A stretch of DNA of 64,000 nt from Coprobacillaceae bacterium UN01-12pH3A (GTDB taxonomy: Bacteria > Bacillota_I > Bacilli_A > Erysipelotrichales > Coprobacillaceae). Under the pieces are notes generated by a model. The model saw only the letters and a list, made by a program, of their open reading frames with translations. It made no database searches and was not told the origin of the DNA. Where the stretch lies: contig JAQENU010000004.1 of assembly GCA_027676805.1 (NCBI GenBank), positions 186,001 through 250,000 of the forward strand, written 5' to 3'. Shown piece by piece: positions 6,868 through 15,716 of this stretch (position 1 is the first letter of the stretch; every line of letters starts with the position of its first letter). The position numbers and the translations under genes were made by a program.

Positions 6868-7293
6868 TTATCCTTTATCTTGATCTTGATTGCGGTAAGC
6901 AAATCTTCTTCTTATCTTTAATGGATTATCTTCACCAGGGAAATGCCATGGATTCATATGATCCTGTTTGAATCCTTCTACGATGTCCTTTGCGTCAGTG
7001 ATGACTTGATCTAAAAACATAGTACCGTACATTCTTGGAGGCAGAACATAGATAGGGGTTGTGACATTATGTTTTTTACATAAAGCATCTACAAAAAGAC
7101 GTAAATGAGGGCATACCATGCAAATATCATATTCCTTTAATTTAGTAACAGCTTCGTCTCCTGCCATATGAATAGGGTAAAAATCAAAACTGTATTCCTG
7201 ATCTAAACCTTTTTCAACGCAGGCATTCTGCAATTTTTGGGCTAAAAAGCTTGATGACATCCCGGCTCCGCAACTAATTAATATTTTGATCAT
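6868..7293 (-). CDS. Orphan PTS lactose/cellobiose-type IIB component
   Basis: The N terminus MIKILISCGAGMSSSFLAQKL is the classic IIB P-loop with the phospho-acceptor cysteine (residue 8) followed by small residues, as in the lactose/cellobiose family. At about 141 residues it is longer than usual (about 100) and ends in a charged tail. No IIA or IIC gene is next to it, so it may serve a remote transporter or act as a phosphorylation-dependent regulator. A consensus promoter is visible at 7326-7354. The mobile element inserted just upstream of that promoter. Confidence 0.75.
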   Translation of the reverse strand: MIKILISCGAGMSSSFLAQKLQNACVEKGLDQEYSFDFYPIHMAGDEAVTKLKEYDICMVCPHLRLFVDALCKKHNVTTPIYVLPPRMYGTMFLDQVITDAKDIVEGFKQDHMNPWHFPGEDNPLKIRRRFAYRNQDQDKG

Positions 7294-7325
7294 AATTTTT
7301 ATCTCCGTTTCTTTATGGTAATTTA

Positions 7326-7354
7326 ATTATAAGCAATCTGTGCTGAGATTACAA
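7326..7354 (-). promoter_or_regulatory. Promoter of the orphan PTS IIB gene
   Basis: On the minus strand TTGTAA (7349-7354) and TATAAT (7326-7331) are 17 bp apart. The promoter lies 45 bp from the left repeat of the mobile element, so insertion left it intact. Confidence 0.7.
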
Positions 7355-7398
7355 TGAGAGAAAGAGGGGTTTTTATTTTAGGTCGAGAAAATGGCTTA

Positions 7399-7414
7399 TA
7401 ACTTGCACCAGTTT
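7399..7414. repeat. Left attachment site repeat (attL core)
   Basis: A 16-bp copy of TAACTTGCACCAGTTT between the PTS IIB promoter and the 3' end of int. The other copy is at 15685-15700. Confidence 0.8.
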
Positions 7415-7481
7415 TTATTATAAGTAATTGACTTAATAAATATGTTGATTTAATCAATGCTTTTTAGATTTCATTATTCTA

Positions 7482-8618
7482 TTAATTTACTTTTGACACT
7501 TTTTCGACACTTTCTGTATTAAATATAGTGTCTATTACCTGTTTTTTATGTCCGTCATTGATATGAGTATAAATGCTCATAGTGGTATTAATATTACTAT
7601 GCCTCATTAGTTCTTGTGCAGTTTTTAAATCAACATCATTAGTGACTAGAATGGTAGCAAAGGTATGGCGTAGCTTATGAAAATAGAAATTTATCCCATA
7701 GCCGGCAGCTACCCTTTTCACGTACTGTGTAAAGATTGTAGGGTGTATGTAGTAGTTTTCTTCATCACACACAATTTCTTGATATGGATTGATTTTAAAC
7801 CATTCAATCAAAGATTTCTTTAATGGATCAGCTAACGGTATAACGGCCTCTGATTTGGCTGACTTCATTTGGTGCGTGGTATAGAGTTCATTTTTTGGTA
7901 AAGCATTGTACACCAGTTTCTTATTTACGTTAATTAAGTTATTATCAAAATCAATGTCATTCTTTTCTAGTGCGAATGCTTCACTAATCCTTAAACCTGT
8001 ATAGCAACCAATCTCTATAGCGATAGCATAGGCTTTATATCTGAATGATCCACTTGCTTTCAGATCATCAATGATAGTGTATATATCATCATAGGATATT
8101 ATTTTATCCTCTTTCCTTGATGTATCAATCCCTTTAACCGTTACTAAACTTATAGGATTATAGGTAATGTATCCCACTTTCAAAGCATAGTTCAAAATGC
8201 GGTTAATGGTCACTTTTATAATTCTGTTTGTTGCTATCCCGTTGCTGCTTAAACTGTTAAAGAATTTCTGCAGCATAGGATAATCAAACTTACTAATCAA
8301 GATATTACCGATTGAGTTCTTTAAGTATTTATTGTATTTAGATTTTGTTTGATTCATAGAGTTTTCTTGAAATTGATCGCTGCCTAGTTCAAGGAACTCT
8401 ATGTATACATCACTAAACGTTTTAACATTTATTTTTTTTATGATCCCGGTATCTAATAGCTGCTTTTTCATTTCTGTTTCGTGATCTTGGGCCATAGGTT
8501 TTGTCTCAAAGCCACTCTTTGAATATCTTCGGGTTATTCCATTTTGCTTGTAATTGAAATAGACTTCCCATGTATAGCCTTTTTTAGCTTTCTTACTGGG
8601 GCGTTTTCTTAAACTCAT
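7482..8618 (-). CDS. int: Tyrosine recombinase / phage integrase
   Basis: A 378-residue tyrosine integrase. The N-terminal arm-binding domain (about 1-60) is rich in Arg/Lys and aromatic residues, followed by a SAM-like core-binding domain (about 65-160) and the catalytic domain. The catalytic residues are visible: Arg210 in TGLRISEAF, His314 and Arg317 in HKLRHTF, His340 in LMRHSN and Tyr350 in SIYTHI. It lies at one end of the element next to the attL repeat, reading toward it. The minus-strand start follows AAGGAGG. Two GACAC-type candidate arm sites overlap its last codons. It should catalyse integration and, with the Xis-like protein, excision. Confidence 0.97.
   Translation of the reverse strand: MSLRKRPSKKAKKGYTWEVYFNYKQNGITRRYSKSGFETKPMAQDHETEMKKQLLDTGIIKKINVKTFSDVYIEFLELGSDQFQENSMNQTKSKYNKYLKNSIGNILISKFDYPMLQKFFNSLSSNGIATNRIIKVTINRILNYALKVGYITYNPISLVTVKGIDTSRKEDKIISYDDIYTIIDDLKASGSFRYKAYAIAIEIGCYTGLRISEAFALEKNDIDFDNNLINVNKKLVYNALPKNELYTTHQMKSAKSEAVIPLADPLKKSLIEWFKINPYQEIVCDEENYYIHPTIFTQYVKRVAAGYGINFYFHKLRHTFATILVTNDVDLKTAQELMRHSNINTTMSIYTHINDGHKKQVIDTIFNTESVEKVSKVN
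7495..7514. repeat. Candidate integrase arm-binding sites, left end
   Basis: GACACTTTTT followed by CGACACTTTC, a direct pair inside the 3' end of int. A near-identical pair sits at 15555-15575 near the other end, as expected for arm-type sites of a bivalent tyrosine integrase (inference). Confidence 0.5.
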
Positions 8619-8644
8619 AGTGTTTATCCTCCTTACATATAACC

Positions 8645-8673
8645 TTGTTACACGCTTAAAAATCTGTTATAAT
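8645..8673 (+). promoter_or_regulatory. Consensus promoter of the antisense RNA
   Basis: TTGTTA (8645-8650), a 17-bp spacer and a perfect TATAAT (8668-8673) on the plus strand, pointing away from int toward the 3' end of the repressor gene. No plus-strand gene follows before 9623, only the two-hairpin unit. Confidence 0.8.
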
Positions 8674-8677
8674 AGGA

Positions 8678-8751
8678 GCGAAAATAAAACGTACTCTCAA
8701 TATGTTTATTTTTCGCTTAACGCTCCCTATTGCCAGTAGGGGCGTTTTTTT
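8678..8751 (+). ncRNA. Predicted trans-acting kissing-loop antisense RNA
   Basis: A transcript of about 70-75 nt is predicted from the promoter at 8645-8673. Hairpin 1 pairs AGCGAAAA (8677-8684) with TTTTCGCT (8710-8717), extended by a bulged 4-bp helix, leaving the loop 8689-8704. Hairpin 2 is a terminator: AACGC and CCCTA (8719-8729) pair with TAGGG and GCGTT (8737-8746), then seven Ts. The strand TAAAACGTACTCTCAATAT (8685-8703) is perfectly complementary to ATATTGAGAGTACGTTTTA (10518-10536), the loop and part of the stem of the hairpin before the initiator gene. The design resembles phage P4 CI RNA and P1 c4 RNA. The structure and match are read directly; the function is inferred. Confidence 0.75.
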
Positions 8752-8778
8752 GTTATTTTGCTTTTTCAAATAAATTGA

Positions 8779-9480
8779 CTATTTATTTTGAATGTCATCA
8801 ATTAGAAAATTATATATAACTTCGATTTCATCATTTGTCATGTTGTTAAAATCTTTATTTGGATATTTTTGCTGTAATATTTTTAATTTGTAGTCTACTC
8901 CTATGTCGATGTTATTTTGTGTAATACTATCTAAGTCTGAAATGAGATCATCTGCTGTGTATTCATCATATTTTAAACTAGATAATATCTCTTCAAACGA
9001 ATTAATATATTCTAATTTATTGAAATCTATATATCTAGTATCCAGGGATCTTAATAGCTGAATAGACTCATTGCATTTTTCTATAACCATATTAATGGTA
9101 TGTCTATAAGTTTTATTCCAACTATGAAAAATATCTGGATAAGTATGATAAGCTTCATATACTCCGCTATCTATCAGCAATTTAAGTTTAGTATCTTGTT
9201 TTTCTTTCATTTCTTTTGTATAAACAATTTCTCCATTTTTGATTGGGGGAAGTGATATGGAGATACTATGGGAGTATTCATCATCGTTTAGTCCTAAGAT
9301 ATCCTCCACTGGAACATCTAAAGCACTTGCAATCTTTTTTAGTGTCTCTAATTTTGGTATCCTTGCACCATTTTCATATTGAGCGACTGTTTGCTGTGTT
9401 ACTCCTAATTTATTACCTAACTCTTTTTGGGTTAGGTTTTTCTTTTTTCTTACAAAAGCAATTTTCTCACATGTGTTCAT
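8779..9480 (-). CDS. CI/Stl-like XRE repressor without protease domain
   Basis: The N terminus (about residues 5-65) is an XRE helix-turn-helix (LTQKELGNKLGVTQQTVAQYENGARIP region). The remaining 165 residues are acidic and helical and show no S24/LexA-type Ser-Lys autoprotease motifs. It is divergent from a small Cro-like gene across three operators, so it is the likely master repressor. Lack of an autocleavage domain resembles Stl repressors of SaPI-type satellites, which are released by a helper-phage protein rather than by RecA; that link is inference. I start at the ATG at 9480, 7 nt after AGGAGG. Confidence 0.8.
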   Translation of the reverse strand: MNTCEKIAFVRKKKNLTQKELGNKLGVTQQTVAQYENGARIPKLETLKKIASALDVPVEDILGLNDDEYSHSISISLPPIKNGEIVYTKEMKEKQDTKLKLLIDSGVYEAYHTYPDIFHSWNKTYRHTINMVIEKCNESIQLLRSLDTRYIDFNKLEYINSFEEILSSLKYDEYTADDLISDLDSITQNNIDIGVDYKLKILQQKYPNKDFNNMTNDEIEVIYNFLIDDIQNK

Positions 9481-9503
9481 CAAAATGCCTCCTTGTCAAA
9501 TTA

Positions 9504-9606
9504 ATTTTAACATTAGATAATCAATAAAACAATCAAATAGTTGTATTTTTGTATTGACACAATAAAAAGACTGTAATATCATGTGGATATACAATCAAAA
9601 GATTGT
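9504..9606. promoter_or_regulatory. Divergent promoter region with three repressor operators
   Basis: Three similar dyads of form ACAATCAAAAGATTGT are present: 9529-9544 (ACAATCAAATAGTTGT), 9559-9574 (ACAATAAAAAGACTGT) and 9591-9606 (perfect arms), spaced 30 and 32 bp. The rightward promoter is TTGACA (9554-9559) with TATCAT (9577-9582), 17-bp spacer. The leftward repressor promoter is TTGTTT (9527-9532, minus) with TAAAAT (9504-9509, minus), also 17 bp. The first operator overlaps the leftward -35, the second overlaps the rightward -35 and spacer, and the third lies just after the rightward start. This is a lambda-like switch. Confidence 0.75.
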
Positions 9607-9622
9607 TAAAGGAGGTGAAGTT

Positions 9623-9811
9623 ATGAGAATTGATAAAGTGAAGTTTGTTTCTGAACTTGTTAGGCAAGATATGACCTTAATGGAATTATCTGAAAAGTCA
9701 GGAGTGACACGAGGAACGCTAAGCAATATCAAATGTGGTAAGTCATGTCGTGAAGATATCGGGTTAAAGATTGCTAAAGCACTAAATGTTAAAGTTGATG
9801 ATTTAATGTAG
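9623..9811 (+). CDS. Cro-like XRE HTH protein
   Basis: A 62-residue protein that is essentially one helix-turn-helix: MTLMELSEKSGVTRGTLSNI followed by a basic recognition helix and IGLKIAKALNVKVDDLM. It is the first gene of the rightward operon and opposes the repressor, so it fits a Cro/Str role. The ATG at 9623 follows AAAGGAGGTGAAG; an upstream in-frame ATG would lie inside the operator region. Confidence 0.8.
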   Translation: MRIDKVKFVSELVRQDMTLMELSEKSGVTRGTLSNIKCGKSCREDIGLKIAKALNVKVDDLM

Positions 9812-9857
9812 TAGATTAATTAGAGAGACAAAATATAACAAAACGGAGGAATAGAAA

Positions 9858-10223
9858 ATGATTTATATAAAGAAAAAATATGATAATGGTATAGAAGTTA
9901 ATTCAGAAGTTTATGAAGATGAATTTTATAGTGCATGTCCAATCTGTGGAAAAGAAGTAAATTTAGATCGTGAAATGTTGATACACGTACTACAAGAGGG
10001 AGATATGACGGGGACATCATTCTATTGTGAGGAGTGTAGCAGAAAAAAACTCAATGAAAATATAAACGGTGATGTAGAAAGTAATTTTTCAAATTCGTTT
10101 CGTGAAAATAGCAAAGCGATTTGTAAGTTAATTGAACAGGTAAAAAATAAAGAATTACAAGATAGCTTATTTATTGCACTTGATACATTATCCGATTTGA
10201 TTGGTGATGAACTGCACAAATAG
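9858..10223 (+). CDS. Small zinc-ribbon-like protein of the element
   Basis: 121 residues. Two CxxC knuckles (ACPICGK near residue 27 and YCEECSRKK near residue 57) suggest one bound zinc. The rest is acidic and helical. I recognise no family. It sits in the early rightward operon between the Cro-like and Xis-like genes. The ATG follows CGGAGGAATAGAAA. A DNA- or protein-binding accessory role is only a guess. Confidence 0.65.
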   Translation: MIYIKKKYDNGIEVNSEVYEDEFYSACPICGKEVNLDREMLIHVLQEGDMTGTSFYCEECSRKKLNENINGDVESNFSNSFRENSKAICKLIEQVKNKELQDSLFIALDTLSDLIGDELHK

Positions 10224-10259
10224 GATTAAATACAGTGTGTAAGAAAGGAGTAGAAAGTC

Positions 10260-10493
10260 ATGAGTGATTTACAAATGCTGACACAAGATGAGGTGGCTGA
10301 TCTCTTAAATAGTCATAGAGACACCATCACCATGCTTAGAGAAGTCGGCATACTAAGAGCCACTAAAATAGGTAAATGCTATATGTTCTCACAGGCAGAA
10401 ATAAAGCATTTTCAAGAGACTTACAAAGGGTTAGATGTAAGTAATAGAGTAAAGGCTATTGAAAGTTATAACATTGTTAACGGCTTGAATTAG
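10260..10493 (+). CDS. Excisionase/AlpA-like HTH_17 DNA-binding protein
   Basis: 77 residues with the excisionase-family HTH: MLTQDEVADLLNSHRDTITMLREVGILRATKIGKCYMFSQAEIKHF. The last part is the typical wing and second helix of HTH_17/MerR-like Xis proteins. It could direct excision with the integrase or regulate the operon, as AlpA-like proteins do in satellites. The stop codon lies 10 bp before the hairpin that is the predicted antisense RNA target. The ATG follows AAAGGAG. Confidence 0.8.
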   Translation: MSDLQMLTQDEVADLLNSHRDTITMLREVGILRATKIGKCYMFSQAEIKHFQETYKGLDVSNRVKAIESYNIVNGLN

Positions 10494-10500
10494 CTATACA

Positions 10501-10550
10501 TTAGGACATTAATGAAAATATTGAGAGTACGTTTTAATAATGTCCTTTTT
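10501..10550 (+). promoter_or_regulatory. Attenuator-like hairpin, target of the antisense RNA
   Basis: AGGACATTA (10503-10511) pairs perfectly with TAATGTCCT (10538-10546), extended by an inner helix 10513-10517 with 10532-10536. The loop 10518-10531 reads ATATTGAGAGTACG. A five-T run (10546-10550) and then the initiator ribosome site AGGAGG (10551-10556) follow directly. The loop plus five stem bases is the perfect complement of the predicted RNA at 8685-8703. It can act as a terminator or as a translation switch for the initiator and helicase genes. Confidence 0.75.
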
Positions 10551-10555
10551 AGGAG

Positions 10556-11347
10556 GTGGGTTATATAAATAAAGATAATGGAGTCTATATTCGTGATAGC
10601 ATATTACAAGAAACTATATCAGGAAATGAAAAAATTTTGCTTAGCGAAATGATCTATTTAAGTAAAAACAGTGATTATAAAGTAGCCTATCCCTCTTTAA
10701 AACATTTAGAAAATAAATTAAGATTACCTAAAAGAACAATACAAAGATGTATTAATAACTTAGTCGATCAAGGTTATATAACCAAAGATCGAGAGTTAAA
10801 AAACGGTACTGGTTATATAGCTAAAACTAATTACTTTTTAAGTGATAAAACAAGAGTGATAATAGGGTGTCAAAATGTCACTATACTAGGTGATGAAACG
10901 TCACTATATAAGGTGTCAGAATGTCACCAACTAGGTGACAACATGTCATCAAATAGGTGTCAAAGTGTCACCTGTAAAAAAGAAGAAAAAAGAATTAAAA
11001 AAGATTTATTAAAAAATATATGTGCAAATGCAACTCCATTTGATCCTAAAATGCACTTTGAAGAATTTTGGAATCTATATCCTAAGAAAGTAAACAAGAA
11101 AAAAGCAAAAGATAAATTTTGTAAAGTTTGTAAGAATGAAGAAATATTCAAACAACTTATGAATGGTTTAAATATTCAAATTAAATCGAAAAATTGGTTA
11201 AAAGAGAATGGTCAATATATCCCACATCCTACTACATGGCTAAATGGTGAAAGATGGATGGATGAAATATCTGGTAAAGAAGTTATACAAACAGTTACTT
11301 ATGAAGAAATGAGAGAGAATGATCCCTTCTTTGAAGATACCCTTTAA
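10556..11347 (+). CDS. Replication initiator (wHTH / DnaD-like) with internal iterons
   Basis: The N-terminal part (about residues 10-100) is a winged helix-turn-helix of the HTH_36 type (SLKHLENKLRLPKRTIQRCINNL, DQGYITKDRELKNGTGY). A linker encoded by five iterons follows, and the C-terminal region (about 170-250) resembles phage replisome-organiser/DnaD-type proteins (FWNLYPKKVNKKKAKDKF, PHPTTWLNGERW). The only standard start codon is the GTG at 10556, but it overlaps the ribosome site. The best-spaced codon after AGGAGG is ATA at 10565, which would give an N terminus reading NKDNGVYIRDS. Hence the ATA may be used, or an ATG was lost by mutation. It overlaps the helicase gene by 29 bp. Confidence 0.8.
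   Translation: MGYINKDNGVYIRDSILQETISGNEKILLSEMIYLSKNSDYKVAYPSLKHLENKLRLPKRTIQRCINNLVDQGYITKDRELKNGTGYIAKTNYFLSDKTRVIIGCQNVTILGDETSLYKVSECHQLGDNMSSNRCQSVTCKKEEKRIKKDLLKNICANATPFDPKMHFEEFWNLYPKKVNKKKAKDKFCKVCKNEEIFKQLMNGLNIQIKSKNWLKENGQYIPHPTTWLNGERWMDEISGKEVIQTVTYEEMRENDPFFEDTL
10866..10971. repeat. Five iterons: predicted replication origin
   Basis: Units begin at 10866 (GGTGTCAAAATGTCAC), 10889 (GGTGATGAAACGTCAC), 10912 (GGTGTCAGAATGTCAC), 10934 (GGTGACAACATGTCAT) and 10956 (GGTGTCAAAGTGTCAC). The steps are 23, 23, 22 and 22 bp, about two helical turns. Each is an imperfect dyad of GGTGACA and TGTCACC. The step is not a multiple of three, so selection is on DNA and not on the protein linker. 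An origin inside the initiator gene is as in lambda O and many Gram-positive phages. Confidence 0.8.
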
Positions 11348-12641
11348 CGAAGAAATGGAAAGAGCCTTGTTAGGTAGTGTATTAATCGATTATAAGAATA
11401 CAATGAATGAATTGGTAGATATAGATGAATCTATTTTCTATATTGATACTCATAAAGAAATTTATAAATCAATGATTGAGCTATCTAACAATGGCAGTCC
11501 TATAGACATTACCACCGTCTATGGTAAATTAATAAAAAACACGAATAACAAAGTAACTGTAGATTATTTACTTCATTTAGCCGAAGAAACACCCACCGCA
11601 GCACATGCAAAATACTATTGCGAGCAATTAACTAAATTAAGTACACTTAGAAAAATGGCAGAATTATGTCAGACAACTTATAAACAAATCCTTACCGGTG
11701 ATGTTCAAGATATCAACGATCTGTTAATGAGGAATATGAAGGCACTTTCCGAATTATCAGAAAACGGTCAAGAGAGCGAATTTAAGAGCTTTTACGACTT
11801 AGCTAAGGAAAATATCAAGGAACAGGAAAACATCGCTAGAACAGGGAAAACGAATAGGATTAAGACCTTATTTCCTTCATTGGATAAACTAACCGGAGGA
11901 TTTAAGGGCGGAGACCTGATTATTATCGGTGCAAGACCAAGTGTAGGGAAAACAGCTTTTGCGCTTAACTTAGCTTTAAAGATGGGGAAAGGCAGTCATA
12001 AAGCTGTTCCAGTGTTCTCGGTTGAAATGCGAAGCGATTCGATTTGCTACCGCATGATGGCAGGAATCAGTGGAATTGACAACAATTCTTTTAAATCAGG
12101 AGCAGCTTTTGAAAATGAATCCAAAAAGGTTTATGCGATTGCAGAATTATCAAAAAAATATAATGTATATGTGAATGATAAAAGTGCAATCAAGGTTTAT
12201 CAGATGAAAGCAGCTTTAATTAAATTTATGAAAGACCACCCAATTCAAGCGATCGTTATTGATTACCTCCAATTACTGAAGGGAAGTAGAAAATTCGTTA
12301 ATAAAAACGAAGAAGTAAGCGAAATATCAAGGGACTTAAAATTGCTTGCTAGAGAGTTAGATGTGCCGGTTATAGTCTTATCCCAGTTATCAAGAAACAT
12401 TGAACAGAGGGAAGATAAACGACCAAGAATGTCCGATTTAAGAGATAGCGGAAGCGTGGAACAAGACGCAGATGTAATTATGATGCTTTGGCGAGAGGAT
12501 TATCAGAATTTTCAAAGTAGCGATATCAGCAATATCAATATTGATGTAGTGAAGTGTCGTGATGGAAGTATTGGATCACTTAAATTAGCTTTCGATAAAC
12601 CGCATAGCTGGTTTAGTGAGATTACAAAGAAAGATATTTAA
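11319..12641 (+). CDS. DnaB-family replicative helicase of the element
   Basis: 440 residues. A DnaB N-terminal helical domain (EEMERALLGSVLIDYKN, residues about 10-110) is followed by the RecA-like motor: Walker A GARPSVGKTAFA (204-215), the FSVEMR motif, Walker B IQAIVIDYLQLL, and VIVLSQLSRNIEQR with DLRDSGSVEQDADVIMML. It is close to full length for DnaB. It overlaps the initiator gene by 29 bp, so the two are probably translationally coupled. With the iteron origin it gives the element its own replication module. A weak terminator follows at 12646-12680. Confidence 0.93.
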   Translation: MIPSLKIPFNEEMERALLGSVLIDYKNTMNELVDIDESIFYIDTHKEIYKSMIELSNNGSPIDITTVYGKLIKNTNNKVTVDYLLHLAEETPTAAHAKYYCEQLTKLSTLRKMAELCQTTYKQILTGDVQDINDLLMRNMKALSELSENGQESEFKSFYDLAKENIKEQENIARTGKTNRIKTLFPSLDKLTGGFKGGDLIIIGARPSVGKTAFALNLALKMGKGSHKAVPVFSVEMRSDSICYRMMAGISGIDNNSFKSGAAFENESKKVYAIAELSKKYNVYVNDKSAIKVYQMKAALIKFMKDHPIQAIVIDYLQLLKGSRKFVNKNEEVSEISRDLKLLARELDVPVIVLSQLSRNIEQREDKRPRMSDLRDSGSVEQDADVIMMLWREDYQNFQSSDISNINIDVVKCRDGSIGSLKLAFDKPHSWFSEITKKDI

Positions 12642-12645
12642 ATTT

Positions 12646-12680
12646 AAAGGGTGTTAGTCTAATTGACGATACCCTTTTAT
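12646..12680 (+). terminator. Probable terminator after the helicase gene
   Basis: AAAGGGT (12646-12652) and ACCCTTTT (12671-12678) form a stem with a large 18-nt loop. The U-run is short, so strength is uncertain. Confidence 0.5.
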
Positions 12681-12954
12681 GTTGCAGTAAATGAAAAAAG
12701 TCAATTTGGCGTTTCGTAAATTTTACGATTTGCAACTATTCATCAATTTGATGAACAGATAGAGAAAAATGCCGTTTTCCTAAAACGCTTCATATTTAGC
12801 GTTTAATCGTTGTTTGTTCTAACTGGTATAAGTTTATGAGTTAGGCATGGAACGTACTGTAGCAATGAGAAAAGACGTTATTTTAGACCGAATGGTGCAA
12901 ATTATAAAGTAATTGCAGTCAAAAAGAAAAGAATAACGATATATTCGCTATTCC
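12681..12954. other. AT-rich non-coding stretch with small dyads
   Basis: No gene is supported. Small dyads are present: CGTAAATTTTACG near 12715, ATCAATTTGAT near 12750 and AAACGCTTCATATTTAGCGTTT near 12785. A 21-codon ORF from the ATG at 12847 has no good ribosome site. The stretch separates the replication module from the reversed XRE/membrane pair. Confidence 0.5.
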
Positions 12955-13335
12955 TTATGACTTCTTTTTAAATAGATAAGCTGCCACCGCAATGCCAACA
13001 GTACCAAAAAGTGAAGTGATTTGTACGAAGATGCCTAAAAAGTCTTTGTATTCAATCAATCCGGGAGTATATAAATTATTCATAACATTATACATAATTG
13101 TAGAAAGCCACATAATGAACAATACTAAAGCAGATAGATTAAAGAGCATACCTAAAAGTATGATCAATAAGATTACTACTAACAAATAAAAATACAATAT
13201 CATGGATAAAGTTTTTTTATTCTTTATGCCCTCTTTTTTTAATTGAACTATAAGTTTTTTTTCTCGTGATATAAAAAAGAAAGCTACGAACCAAAAATTC
13301 ATACCTCCTATAAAAAAATATAATATATTATCCAT
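12955..13335 (-). CDS. Small multi-helix membrane protein of the element
   Basis: 126 residues with about four hydrophobic helices: ILYFFIGGMNFWFVAFFFI, MILYFYLLVVILLIILLGML, ALVLFIMWLSTIMYNVM and FVQITSLFGTVGIAVAAYLF. The charged loops are Lys-rich. No family recognised. It follows the XRE gene in the same minus-strand unit, 13 bp apart, and opposes the element's main operon. It may be an accessory (moron-like) gene such as an immunity or exclusion factor, but that is only position-based. Confidence 0.65.
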   Translation of the reverse strand: MDNILYFFIGGMNFWFVAFFFISREKKLIVQLKKEGIKNKKTLSMILYFYLLVVILLIILLGMLFNLSALVLFIMWLSTIMYNVMNNLYTPGLIEYKDFLGIFVQITSLFGTVGIAVAAYLFKKKS

Positions 13336-13348
13336 TGCTGATCACTTC

Positions 13349-13597
13349 CTATTCTTTGCTAGATAAATCATTTTTATCAAATTCAATTAGTGTTTTACCA
13401 GTTTCTTTATCATTGAATGCTAATGTTGTGTTAGTTAGTTCTGCTAATTTAATTAAATCTGCAGTATTAAAAGCAGTCTCGCTATTTGAAATTTTTCTAT
13501 TTATTGATTGCTTTGATACTTTGAAATATTCAGATAGTTCAATTTGACTTTTACCTTTTAAATTTAATAATGCTTTAATTTTTTCTTTAATCATCAT
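13349..13597 (-). CDS. XRE HTH regulator paired with the membrane protein
   Basis: About 82 residues. A helix-turn-helix (KSQIELSEYFKVSKQSINRKISNSETAFNTADLIKLAELTNTTLAF) with a short acidic tail. It reads minus, with a GAGGTG ribosome site just before two adjacent ATGs (13597 or 13594). It may control its own unit and, through the AAACCTT/AAGGTTT dyad about 110 bp away at 13710-13724, the divergent plus-strand operon (inference). Confidence 0.75.
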   Translation of the reverse strand: MMIKEKIKALLNLKGKSQIELSEYFKVSKQSINRKISNSETAFNTADLIKLAELTNTTLAFNDKETGKTLIEFDKNDLSSKE

Positions 13598-13700
13598 ATT
13601 CACCTCATAGATATTATATCATGAAATAAAGGTAAACGCTACGAGTTAATAATATTACTTTTAAGGATTAAAAATAATTGCTAAATATTTACTTTTAGAG

Positions 13701-13729
13701 TTGACAAGTAAACCTTAAAGGTTTATACT
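13701..13729 (+). promoter_or_regulatory. Promoter with palindromic operator in its spacer
   Basis: TTGACA (13701-13706), a 17-bp spacer and TATACT (13724-13729). The spacer holds the dyad TAAACCTTAAAGGTTTA (13709-13725), so a bound repressor would block the promoter. The divergent XRE protein is the likely candidate. Confidence 0.75.
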
Positions 13730-13736
13730 GTAGTTG

Positions 13737-13809
13737 TAAGGTAAATAGAGCAAACAAAAAAGGGTATCAACGCCACCCAGCATTAATAACCCATAACTAT
13801 TTTACCTTA
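13737..13809 (+). promoter_or_regulatory. Structured 5' leader of the late small-gene operon
   Basis: TAAGGTAAATAG (13737-13748) and CTATTTTACCTTA (13797-13809) are near-perfect inverted repeats enclosing about 48 nt that includes GGGTATC, GCCACCC and ATAACCC. The transcript from 13701-13729 would start at the foot of this long hairpin. The ribosome site AAAGAGG lies further downstream. Confidence 0.55.
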
Positions 13810-13840
13810 AATAAATATAAAAAGAAAGAGGTAAATTATC

Positions 13841-14116
13841 ATGACAAACAAAGAATTAGAAATGAAAATCAAAGAGATCAAGGAAATGCAGAGAATTAAA
13901 GAGGAAGCCGAAGCGGCTATTAAGGCAATGCAAGATGAAATCAAAGCAGACATGGAAGCAAAGCAAGTAAGCGAAATTATCACAGATCAGTACAAAGTTA
14001 AGTATACAAAGGTGGAAACAAATAGATTTGATACCAAGACCTTTAAAGATAAATACTTAGATTTATATAATCAATTCATTCGAGTAAGTAATTCAATGAG
14101 GTTCTCTATTAACTAG
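13841..14116 (+). CDS. Phage/ICE-type small coiled-coil protein
   Basis: 91 residues. The N-terminal half is a heptad-rich helix (KELEMKIKEIKEMQRIKEEAEAAIKAMQDEIKADME). The C-terminal half has the pattern YKVKYTKVETNRFDTKTFKDKYLDLYNQF...SMRFSIN. I remember this arrangement from many Firmicutes phages and integrative elements, where it stays without a known function. The ATG follows AAAGAGGTAAATTATC. It is the first gene after the structured leader. Confidence 0.7.
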   Translation: MTNKELEMKIKEIKEMQRIKEEAEAAIKAMQDEIKADMEAKQVSEIITDQYKVKYTKVETNRFDTKTFKDKYLDLYNQFIRVSNSMRFSIN

Positions 14117-14132
14117 GGACCTCATAGGTCCT
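14114..14132 (+). other. Intercistronic hairpin
   Basis: AGGGACCT and AGGTCCTT form a short stem with a CAT loop directly after the stop of the coiled-coil gene. There is no T-run, so it is more likely a stability or processing element than a terminator. Confidence 0.4.
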
Positions 14133-14166
14133 TATACAGCACTTAAAAGGAAAGAGGTATAATATA

Positions 14167-14274
14167 ATGAGCGATGAAGTATTAAATGAAATTGAAGAAG
14201 AAATAAAGAGTTTCACAAAAGAAGAACTAAACGCAGTTTTAGAATTCTTGTTCTTTGTGGAGGTATGTGAATAA
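14167..14274 (+). CDS. 35-residue acidic peptide of the element
   Basis: A short ORF, MSDEVLNEIEEEIKSF..., strongly acidic and helical, with a hydrophobic C-terminal third (LNAVLEFLFFVEV). It has a ribosome site (GGAAAGAGG upstream of ATAATATAATG), and its stop TAA overlaps the ATG of the next gene by one base (TAATG), which implies translational coupling. No family recognised. Confidence 0.55.
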   Translation: MSDEVLNEIEEEIKSFTKEELNAVLEFLFFVEVCE

Positions 14275-14555
14275 TGGCTAAGAAAAAAGAAGAAATCACT
14301 TCTACAGATTATAAAGCACAAATAATTGATATGATCCTGAATACTGAAAATATAGTTAAGCTGCAGGTATTAGAAACATTTATTGAAAACTGCCTAGAGA
14401 CTAAGCCGAAAATAAAAGTAAATGAAGATGATCGGCAAAGAGTATGGATAATGATTTTACTAAGCAAAATAAAAAACAGGAAATCATTAGATAAAATAAA
14501 TAGTTGTGTACAACGTTACTGGCTTGATTATGAGGACTTTAGTGATGAAAGATAA
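14274..14555 (+). CDS. Hypothetical 93-residue element protein
   Basis: A charged, helical protein (MAKKKEEITSTDYKAQIIDMI..., later QRVWIMILLSKIKNRKSLDKINSCVQRYWLDYEDF). The GTGGAGG ribosome site lies inside the preceding 35-residue ORF, with a TAATG overlap. No known motif. Its place in the run of small genes after the structured leader suggests a satellite-specific accessory role, which I cannot specify. Confidence 0.6.
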   Translation: MAKKKEEITSTDYKAQIIDMILNTENIVKLQVLETFIENCLETKPKIKVNEDDRQRVWIMILLSKIKNRKSLDKINSCVQRYWLDYEDFSDER

Positions 14556-14670
14556 TAAAACATTGATTAAAGAGTATCAAGATCAAATCATATGGCTTAT
14601 TCCTAAGTTGACATCAATCAAAGCACTAGAAACTATTCCGATCATCATTAGACGTCATGTCAAAGTTTAG
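14545..14670 (+). CDS. 41-residue peptide ORF
   Basis: Overlaps the end of the preceding gene by 11 bp. It reads MKDNKTLIKEYQDQIIWLIP..., basic at the C terminus (IIIRRHVKV). The tight overlap with its neighbours on both sides supports translation. No family recognised. Confidence 0.45.
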   Translation: MKDNKTLIKEYQDQIIWLIPKLTSIKALETIPIIIRRHVKV

Positions 14671-14678
14671 GTAAAGCT

Positions 14679-14831
14679 ATGATAAAGATTAAGGTATCAT
14701 ATCAAAACAAGGCAGAATTAGACCAGCTAGTGAGTTTAATAGGAGTATCGAATATAAAACACTTGAAGTTATCAAACAACCGAGAGGGCGCTTATAAAAA
14801 GGCGTATATCACAATGAAAGAGGTTAAGTAA
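14679..14831 (+). CDS. DUF3970-like small phage protein
   Basis: 50 residues: MIKIKVSYQNKAELDQLVSL near the start and KLSNNREGAYKKAYITMKEVK at the end. This matches my memory of the small DUF3970 phage/satellite family, with a beta strand, a helix and a GxYKKAYI strand. Function unknown. It lies 8 bp after the previous ORF and its stop codon is inside a terminator stem, so it is the last gene of this operon. Confidence 0.6.
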   Translation: MIKIKVSYQNKAELDQLVSLIGVSNIKHLKLSNNREGAYKKAYITMKEVK

Positions 14832-14843
14832 AACCTCTTTTTT
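14817..14843 (+). terminator. Terminator of the small-gene operon
   Basis: AAAGAGGTT (14817-14825) pairs with AACCTCTTT (14832-14840), followed by more Ts. The stem includes the stop codon region of the last ORF. Confidence 0.85.
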
Positions 14844-15357
14844 GTATGCGAACGTTTTAAGATTTACAAAACGACGAATCAACGATATTAAGGGAGTACC
14901 AAATCGGTCACCCCTGCCCTTTGAACAAAACAACATAAAGGTGCACCCTTTGTGTGCGTACAAAACGACAATAAAGCGTGATTTAAGCGTGATTATCGCT
15001 ATTAGGTAGCATTAAATATAGGGGTTTCCTTACATTGGAGGGTGCACCCCTTTTAGCCTTTACAAAACGAACGAAATGCGCGTCTTTTGTTAGATTTTGT
15101 TATGATTGAAACCCATTAGATTGCTTAGAAATGCTGAGGTTAAAACGTATATAGGAAAATATGATGATATCGTTATAATGCTTAACTATTCCATATATAA
15201 CCTAACAAAACCTAGCTTTATATGGTATATAACCTATATCGGATTAGATAACCTGACATCGTTACACGTGCGTGTGAATTGTTAAGAATTCTATACAGAG
15301 ACATTAACAAAAAAACTTAAAAAACTTAAAATTCAAACTACTATCAAAAGTGCATAA
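14844..15357. other. Non-coding right arm with repeated motifs
   Basis: No gene is supported in about 510 bp. TACAAAACGA occurs exactly three times (14865-14874, 14959-14968, 15061-15070). The palindrome GGTGCACC occurs twice (14940-14947, 15041-15048, the latter as GGGTGCACCC). AAGCGTGATT is tandem at 14974-14983 and 14985-14994. ATATAACCTA-type repeats lie near 15195, 15228 and 15248. It could hold packaging, transfer or second-origin signals. Confidence 0.5.
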
Positions 15358-15386
15358 TTGATTTTATTCTGTAATGGAGTTATTAT
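15358..15386 (+). promoter_or_regulatory. Promoter of a short structured transcript
   Basis: TTGATT (15358-15363), a 17-bp spacer and TATTAT (15381-15386). The predicted start at about 15391-15394 is exactly at the outer stem of the structured transcript. Confidence 0.6.
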
Positions 15387-15410
15387 AAAAATAGGCAGGA
15401 GGTAGAGATT

Positions 15411-15512
15411 GTGTCGCTACACACCCAAGTGGTTAAAAAAAGAGATGCTGGAACAGACACACCAGCCCTGCCTTATATTAATAATAAAAACAAAAGCGAT
15501 CATAAACCATAG
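15411..15512 (+). CDS. 33-residue basic peptide ORF (GTG start)
   Basis: The GTG at 15411 follows AGGAGG with 9 nt spacing. The product begins MSLHTQVVKKRDAGTDTPA and is basic and polar with no membrane helix. The coding sequence is also highly self-complementary, so coding and RNA roles may overlap. No family identified; its own promoter and terminator support expression of the region. Confidence 0.4.
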   Translation: MSLHTQVVKKRDAGTDTPALPYINNKNKSDHKP

Positions 15513-15684: not shown

Positions 15685-15716
15685 TAACTTGCACCAGTTT
15701 ATTTTTATAGTATAAT
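15685..15716 (+). promoter_or_regulatory. attR core overlapping the murF promoter
   Basis: The 16-bp repeat TAACTTGCACCAGTTT (15685-15700) contains TTGCAC (15689-15694), which lies 16 bp before TATAAT (15711-15716). The start of murF is 27 bp further on. Thus the att core brings the -35 box of murF, and insertion rebuilds the promoter. Confidence 0.7.

Follow-up and report, generated by a model that had tools for sequence, protein, structure and literature searches.

The window, the whole 64,000-nt stretch of Coprobacillaceae bacterium UN01-12pH3A analysed here (contig JAQENU010000004.1, positions 186,001 to 250,000), carries a mobile element with a predicted antisense RNA gene of ~74 nt and two hairpins (8678..8751, plus strand; fold, covariance models R1 and R2, covariation). 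The gene is placed between a tyrosine integrase gene (7482..8618, minus strand; Pfam Phage_integrase 5.5e-29, PHROG integrase) and a CI-like repressor gene (8779..9483, minus strand; Pfam HTH_3 7.9e-19, PHROG transcriptional repressor). Its predicted target lies between an xis-like gene (10260..10493, plus strand; HTH_17, supported by Pfam, PHROG and a homologue search) and a replication initiator gene (10565..11347, plus strand; PHROG replication initiation protein 4.1e-36 and Pfam HTH_36 5.2e-09, searched from 10556), with a DnaB-type helicase gene behind it (11319..12641, plus strand; Pfam DnaB_C 2.1e-84). The RNA is probably a switch that holds the replication of the element in check.

The predicted RNA gene and its complement

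A predicted promoter (8645..8673, plus strand) precedes the RNA, with TTGTTA, a spacer of 17 nt, TATAAT and an extended −10 TGn. An intrinsic terminator (8719..8752, plus strand; scan, fold and covariation) consists of a stem at 8724-8742 and a T run. Both signals had been claimed by an initial annotation made from the sequence alone, and both are present as claimed. Promoter-like sites are not above expectation (37 found for 43.0 expected), so the promoter match by itself proves little; the terminator scan gave 11 sites for 2.9 expected. Of the 17 aligned rows, 11, the window included, contain the block TATAATAGGAG (columns 1-11 of alignment A5). It is conserved more than a −10 box requires, and its AGGAG part may be a regulator site. 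No operator-like palindrome within 3 mismatches was found near this promoter. To judge from the sequence, production of the RNA would be independent of the repressor.

The unit 8678-8755 folds into two hairpins at −26.5 kcal/mol (z −5.6, 200 shuffles). In the predicted fold of the 5' hairpin (8678..8716, plus strand), an apical loop of 7 nt, CUCUCAA, sits atop the inner stem AAACGUA/UAUGUUU. The 19-nt stretch complementary to the target (8685..8703, plus strand) lies in this hairpin, as first described, although the loop quoted there includes part of the inner stem. A complement search placed the target stretch at 10518..10536 (plus strand), and the two stretches match exactly over 19 nt. Shuffling the window 100 times gave a mean of 0.01 such complements at ≤3 mismatches, with a maximum of 1. 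Since shuffles almost never give such a complement, it is not explained by chance, and the initial annotation was right on this point.

The target stretch sits in the loop of a predicted hairpin (10503..10546, plus strand; fold, flanking-stem p 0.0007) with the arms AGGACATTA (10503-10511) and TAATGTCCT (10538-10546). This hairpin is located between xis and the initiator gene, directly ahead of the initiator ribosome site AGGAGG (10551..10556, plus strand, read from the sequence), and has no more than moderate stability (z −3.0 for 10500-10552). Of the 26 nt that separate its two arms, the complement takes up 19; it does not cover the whole loop, contrary to what had been stated. Co-folding of the RNA with its leader agrees with the suggested pairing, with a gain of −11.6 kcal/mol for the window pair.

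Relatives of the RNA and their partner sites

Relatives were sought with the xis gene as anchor: 65 homologous proteins were listed and 34 aligned with that of the window, which led to eight genome loci and one virus contig and then to matches in 20 of the 43 genomes of the family of genome G001. The RNA gene was first recognised at loci L011 and L046 and, by pattern, in L067. Across the order, covariance model R1 (four sequences) found the RNA in 10 of 315 genomes and model R2 (14 sequences) in 12 of 315. Even samples of the class (R1, 3 of 395 genomes) and of the phylum (R2, 3 of 392), searched with stricter filters, gave the same three genomes, all already in the order search. The RNA gene had no match in phage and plasmid records. 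From virus contigs, a search for the exact 19-mer gave no hit, and three looser patterns returned 7, 8 and 40 stretches that overlapped between scans. Six of the seven stretches in the smallest set were read, and the RNA is present in L067 alone; the remaining stretch, L072, is the record of L011. Model R1 (E ≤ 0.1) found nothing in L066, L068, L069, L095, L096 and L097, and model R2, run over the 40 pattern stretches and L095-L097, found only L067 and L072. The carriers are small mobile elements of gut Erysipelotrichia; the window itself derives from a Beduini-like bacterium, with a MurF protein 96% identical to that of Beduini massiliensis.

A two-hairpin RNA next to a divergent integrase gene is a feature of the family delimited by R1 and R2, found at 11 loci plus L052, L101 and L093. 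The neighbouring integrases were confirmed by Pfam in the window, L046, L052, L091 and L101, and those of L011 and L085-L090 match that of the window by BLAST; the L092 integrase is under the Pfam cut-off, and the one beside L093 was recognised by eye. Nine of the integrases are mutually 31-60% identical. The next gene after the RNA is repressor-like in the window, L011, L046 (HTH under the Pfam cut-off), L085, L086, L087, L088, L089 and L090. At E ≤ 1e-3, neither the L011 nor the L046 repressor has a match among the other eight, and the remaining ones match each other over parts or at 20-46% identity. L087 has two tandem RNAs between integrase and repressor (7440-7519 and 7643-7708, minus strand), of which L087b is complementary to 21 nt of the cro-xis leader and L087a has no recognised partner.

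Among the 14 sequences, aligned by fitting to the model, which favours structure, 94.7% of the cells form standard pairs, and 21 of the 26 stem pairs show double changes. Double-change cells number 62, against a shuffled mean of 17.4, and none of 500 shuffles reached the observed values. Double changes occur in six of the seven pairs in the outer stem of the 5' hairpin and in all 12 pairs of the terminator stem (helix 3), where 90.6% of the cells are paired. When the partners were slid by 1-3 columns, paired cells fell to 33-56% and the covariation score dropped from 0.54 to 0.05-0.13. These compensatory changes indicate that the structure of the RNA is kept.

Partner sites were sought for 14 small RNAs (sRNAs), each 5' hairpin being compared with both strands from at most 4 kb before to 9 kb behind the sRNA and with 300 shuffled hairpins. 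The scan includes L101 and not L093, the reverse of the 14-row alignment A6. Neither set contains L067, which is almost identical to L093; the L067 record and the L093 contig end close behind the RNA, and a site cannot be seen in L067, whose record stops ~465 nt behind it. The RNA of G001 (L093) and a matching site on L003 are on two contigs and were not counted as a pair. The weak RNA matches L057 (E 0.014) and L064 (E 0.0038), excluded from A6 and from the site scan, gave duplex values of −25.3 and −18.8 and no standout site.

For seven of the 14 sRNAs, the loop is complementary to one outstanding site in the early operon of the same locus; two of the other seven are near contig ends. The stacking scores are −32.6 (window), −32.0 (L011), −34.1 (L046), −33.5 (L085), −41.6 (L086), −43.9 (L087b) and −31.0 (L088), with z from −5.2 to −11.4 and no shuffle of 300 as good, apart from one for L011. 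Both strands were searched, and every one of the seven sites falls on the early-operon strand. Five of them lie between xis and a replication gene, which encodes an initiator (window and L046), a primase/helicase (L011), a DnaD-like loader/initiator (L085) or a replisome organizer/initiator (L086). A same-strand RNAduplex scan of 11 sRNAs, which preceded the finding of L087b, L052 and L101, ranked the same site first in the window, L011, L046, L085, L086 and L088. Two further candidates were not counted: L052 has its best site (reached by 1 of 300 shuffles) on the strand that does not encode xis, and L091 (4 of 300) has it 5.2 kb downstream.

The arms around the site core vary by locus: AGGACAUUAAUGAAA/UUUUAAUAAUGUCCU (window), AACAACAUAAA/UUUAUGUUGUU (L046), AUCCAUUA/UAAUGGAU (L085), ACUGUUAAGC/GCUUAACAGU (L086), GGAGAGAAAGGAA/UUCUAUUCUCUCC (L087b) and AAAUGGUAU/GUGCUAUUU (L011). 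Computed against 1500 random places of the same locus, the flanking-arm p is 0.0007 in the window, 0.0047 in L046, 0.07 in L085, 0.0007 in L086, 0.0013 in L087b, 0.10 in L011 and 0.94 in L088. These values make the hairpin clear at four loci and plausible at two, and none is seen at L088; the site can sit in a hairpin loop at six of the seven loci, significantly at four. The start codon follows the site end after 23-33 nt in the window, L011, L046, L087b and L088 (the starts of the window and L046 being inferred), and after ~130 nt in L085 and ~86 nt in L086, with a second hairpin between. This second hairpin, a strong one ahead of the replication gene, differs in stem sequence between L085 and L086 and keeps its pairing. 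The initial annotation had described the target hairpin as U-tailed and proposed attenuation. A U run is seen in the window, counted with the last stem base, and behind none of the target hairpins of the relatives; a conserved attenuator was rejected for this reason.

The loops of the seven RNAs fall into five classes, each matched by its own site. Loop and site thus differ together in the relatives, in favour of the separate RNA that had been proposed to pair through its loop upstream of the initiator; as the seven pairs were recognised by complementarity, they cannot alone show that no loop ever changed singly. The window has loop CUCUCAA and site UUGAGAG, L011 and L046 share loop CGCCAA and site UUGGCG, and L085 and L086 share loop CUCGCAA and site UUGCGAG, where pairing continues through a G-U pair. 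In co-folding, cognate RNAs and sites gain −10.9 to −27.9 kcal/mol, and 31 of the 42 non-cognate values lie between 0 and −2.6 kcal/mol.

Probable control of replication by the RNA

The predicted pairing of the RNA loop with the early-operon site is strongly supported; transcription, repression, timing, immunity and mode of action are inferred. It is quite likely that a short trans-acting antisense RNA pairs with the early mRNA and lowers expression of initiator and helicase. The ~74-nt RNA would be transcribed from its own promoter, apart from the early promoter, which is probably under repressor control. Its loop CUCUCAA would kiss UUGAGAG in a hairpin loop of the early mRNA, in the interval between xis and the initiator gene, and this contact would grow into a duplex of ~19 bp that reduces expression of the initiator and the downstream helicase. 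Leaky early transcription could then give Cro and Xis without a start of replication, and an incoming element that shares the loop should be subject to the RNA as well. The step acted on is most likely post-transcriptional, with ribosome loading hindered, an RNase III site formed between xis and the replication gene, or both.

Several observations weigh against this reading. Most xis genes of this type are without the RNA, which among 20 stretches fetched around xis matches was clear only in L046 and L052 and weak in L057 and L064. Seven of the 14 sRNAs have no convincing site (L087a, L089, L090, L091, L052, L092 and L101); shuffles matched the best site in 252 of 300 cases for L087a, 179 for L089, 68 for L090, 151 for L092 and 62 for L101. 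The sequences of L089 and L092 end ~1 kb behind the sRNA; those of L087a, L090, L091, L052 and L101 do not. For L090, RNAduplex ranks the junction of xis and the replication gene first (−30.5) and the stacking score ranks it second, not significantly; the gene behind this junction matches no PHROG. Nothing convincing was found in the wider contigs of L087a, L091, L052 and L101, the last 4 kb of the L091 contig being uncovered. Nor did a search of the own genomes of these four orphans at ≤3 mismatches yield a convincing partner. With the RNA gene excluded, there were 3, 0, 3 and 1 matches at 2-3 mismatches for L087a, L101, L052 and L091, and 9, 0, 0 and 3 in the reversed-pattern control; the three of L052 (control 0) are all at 3 mismatches.

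Other points concern the sites and their folding. The initial annotation placed the site before the replication gene, which stands for five of the seven loci; that of L087b lies between cro and xis, over 21 nt without error, and that of L088 overlaps the end of dnaB, ahead of the next gene. The spacing and the second hairpin in L085 and L086 rule out direct occlusion as a general mechanism. When longer stretches are folded to minimum free energy, the target hairpin is absent in the window and in L011; in the window, 10495-10575 has a z of −1.0 and a minimum-energy fold that differs from it. A switch in which the freed 3' arm pairs with the ribosome site is unsupported, since folding with the site occupied left accessibility little changed or slightly up. 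Specificity is also imperfect, with 11 of the 42 non-cognate pairs gaining >4 kcal/mol. Four of these share a loop (L011/L046 and L085/L086), four join the window with L085 or L086, whose loops are similar, and three combine the L046 RNA with the window, L085 and L086 leaders, of different loops. The window RNA gains −14.3 kcal/mol with the L086 leader against −11.6 with its own, and the L046 RNA −12.6 with L086 and −9.7 with L085 despite the different loops. The true pairing of RNAs and sites is best among 5040 assignments, but the permuted loci were picked for having a site, so that this shows specificity and not an unbiased probability.

The main alternative is that the same RNA and site act otherwise, through pairing with the nascent leader that causes premature transcription termination before the initiator gene, as in P4. 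The target hairpin of the window, with U residues behind it, resembles a weak terminator, the L085 and L086 leaders are long and structured, and the CI RNA of P4 is described as working by pairing-dependent termination (PMC4825925). The target hairpins of the relatives lack such a U run, which means that conservation does not extend to an intrinsic attenuator, and we regard termination as rather unlikely. The spacing of site and start codon fits ribosome hindrance or an RNase III duplex better than a shared attenuator, since the U run is confined to the window. It is also improbable that the RNA activates, by opening an inhibitory leader hairpin and aiding initiator translation or read-through. 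Occupation of the site does raise the predicted accessibility of the ribosome site slightly (from 0.46 to 0.55 in the window and from 0.13 to 0.22 in L011), but this change is small and is nearly nil in L046, L086 and L088. Antisense RNAs of phages and plasmids with this layout mostly repress. Repression is described for P4 CI RNA and C4 RNA (PMC4825925, PMC12197685).

That both copies are DNA sites, such as Int/Xis arm-type or other protein-binding repeats, and the RNA reading accidental, is the least credible of the alternatives, for all that the first copy adjoins the integrase gene and the second xis. The RNA stems show compensatory changes, promoter and terminator signals surround the first copy, the complement is on the strand that allows both transcripts to pair in all seven recognised cases, the arms flanking the sites differ in sequence yet pair, and the sites of L087 and L088 have other positions. 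Another possibility is that the RNA chiefly guards against incoming relatives, the match on its own element being a mark of shared immunity type. In its favour are cross-pairing among elements with the same or similar loops (L011, L046, L089 and L090; L085, L086 and the window RNA) and the orphan RNAs, for which searches of their own genomes gave no convincing partner. A site on the same element in seven of 14 cases is equally explained by self-regulation, and we consider guarding as the chief role unlikely.

A wider and tentative proposal is that these RNAs form a modular immunity system among Erysipelotrichia phages and satellites. The loop would define an immunity type independent of the protein repressor, since L011 and L046 share a loop and have repressors without detectable similarity. 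Such a system would gate replication (in L087 perhaps excision), allow tandem copies with different loops, silence incoming elements with the same loop and make elements with unrelated repressors cross-immune at the RNA level. Loops may set immunity types among elements whose integrases have diverged and whose repressors are partly unrelated, and each locus predicts which RNA silences which leader. The initial annotation had suggested looking for co-varying loops in related elements, and the seven pairs described above bear this expectation out.

Loop-based antisense control of prophages is already known from P4 and P1/P7. The CI RNA of P4 is described as being processed from a primary untranslated transcript and as silencing prophage replication genes by pairing with complementary leader sequences, at sites on either side of itself (PMC4825925). 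Like it, the mobile-element RNA described here is predicted, by complementarity only, to pair with the leader of a replication gene, at five of seven sites. Unlike it, the RNA has predicted promoter and terminator signals of its own and would not be processed from the leader, its gene lies 1.8 kb upstream, beyond the repressor gene, and the element encodes a protein repressor as well. C4 RNA of P1 and P7 is reported to have complementary sequences likely in loops, a role in heteroimmunity and antirepressor mRNA as its target (PMC12197685), and as RF01695 it is listed from Proteobacteria and phages (PMC2864571). The complementary sequences are predicted in loops here as well, but the RF01695 model does not match the RNA, and the site of the window precedes a replication initiator and not an antirepressor gene.

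In the antisense control of plasmid replication genes, the RNA is encoded on the strand opposite its target; unlike in such cis-antisense copy control, the two stretches are 1.8 kb apart, both units are on the plus strand and the complement is short. The complementarity of sar RNA of P22 and OOP RNA of lambda stems from overlap with the target gene, whereas here it lies in separated loops. RNAII of pMV158 is described as an antisense RNA that inhibits synthesis of the replication initiator (PMC4485353), and sar and OOP as antisense RNAs in lysogeny control, OOP acting via RNase III (PMC12197685). Rfam gave three matches at E ≤ 1 in window positions 7000-15500, none overlapping the RNA or the site, and eight gathering-score matches at 11 relative loci, all tRNAs or skipping-rope RNAs and none of them the RNA. 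No description of this RNA family was found among the open-access articles listed. The RNA would work like P4 CI and P1 C4 RNA but is a separate family. A family in gut Firmicutes that is distinct from those two would point to more than one origin of RNA control over phage-type replication.

Further features of the element

A predicted early rightward promoter (9554..9582, plus strand; TTGACA-17-TATCAT) precedes a Cro-like gene (9614..9811, plus strand; Pfam HTH_3 5.7e-06), and a small gene of unassigned function is listed between the latter and the xis-like gene. Three operator-like palindromes (ACAATCAAAAGATTGT; 0, 2 and 3 mismatches) lie around this promoter (9529..9606, plus strand). The window has five such palindromes for 2.45 expected, and 10 of 100 shuffles reach five; as this count is within chance, their clustering is the sole argument for them.

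The start codon of the initiator gene is probably ATA at 10565, 8 nt behind AGGAGG, to go by the spacing and by comparison with L046; the mechanical start of the open reading frame is GTG at 10556. The L046 initiator gene seems to start with TTG, as suggested by spacing. Weak starts of this kind may limit the amount of initiator. Iteron-like direct repeats GGTGTCAAAATGTCAC were found by repeat search within the initiator gene (10866..10971, plus strand), and comparable ones of ~15-16 nt occur in the initiator gene of L046 (L046 8077-8181). Their location in the initiator gene fits a role in starting replication, and they are a possible origin of replication.

None of the ten window proteins scanned, which do not cover every reading frame, is a capsid protein. 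An imperfect 28-nt direct repeat (82%) at 7399-7426 and 15685-15712, with a 16-nt exact core TAACTTGCACCAGTTT, provides candidate attachment sites, with which the element would be ~8.3 kb long. Near its right end, at 15392-15474, there is a skipping-rope RNA (RF02924, 48.7 bits); skipping-rope RNAs are also found on L085 (two) and L086 (one).

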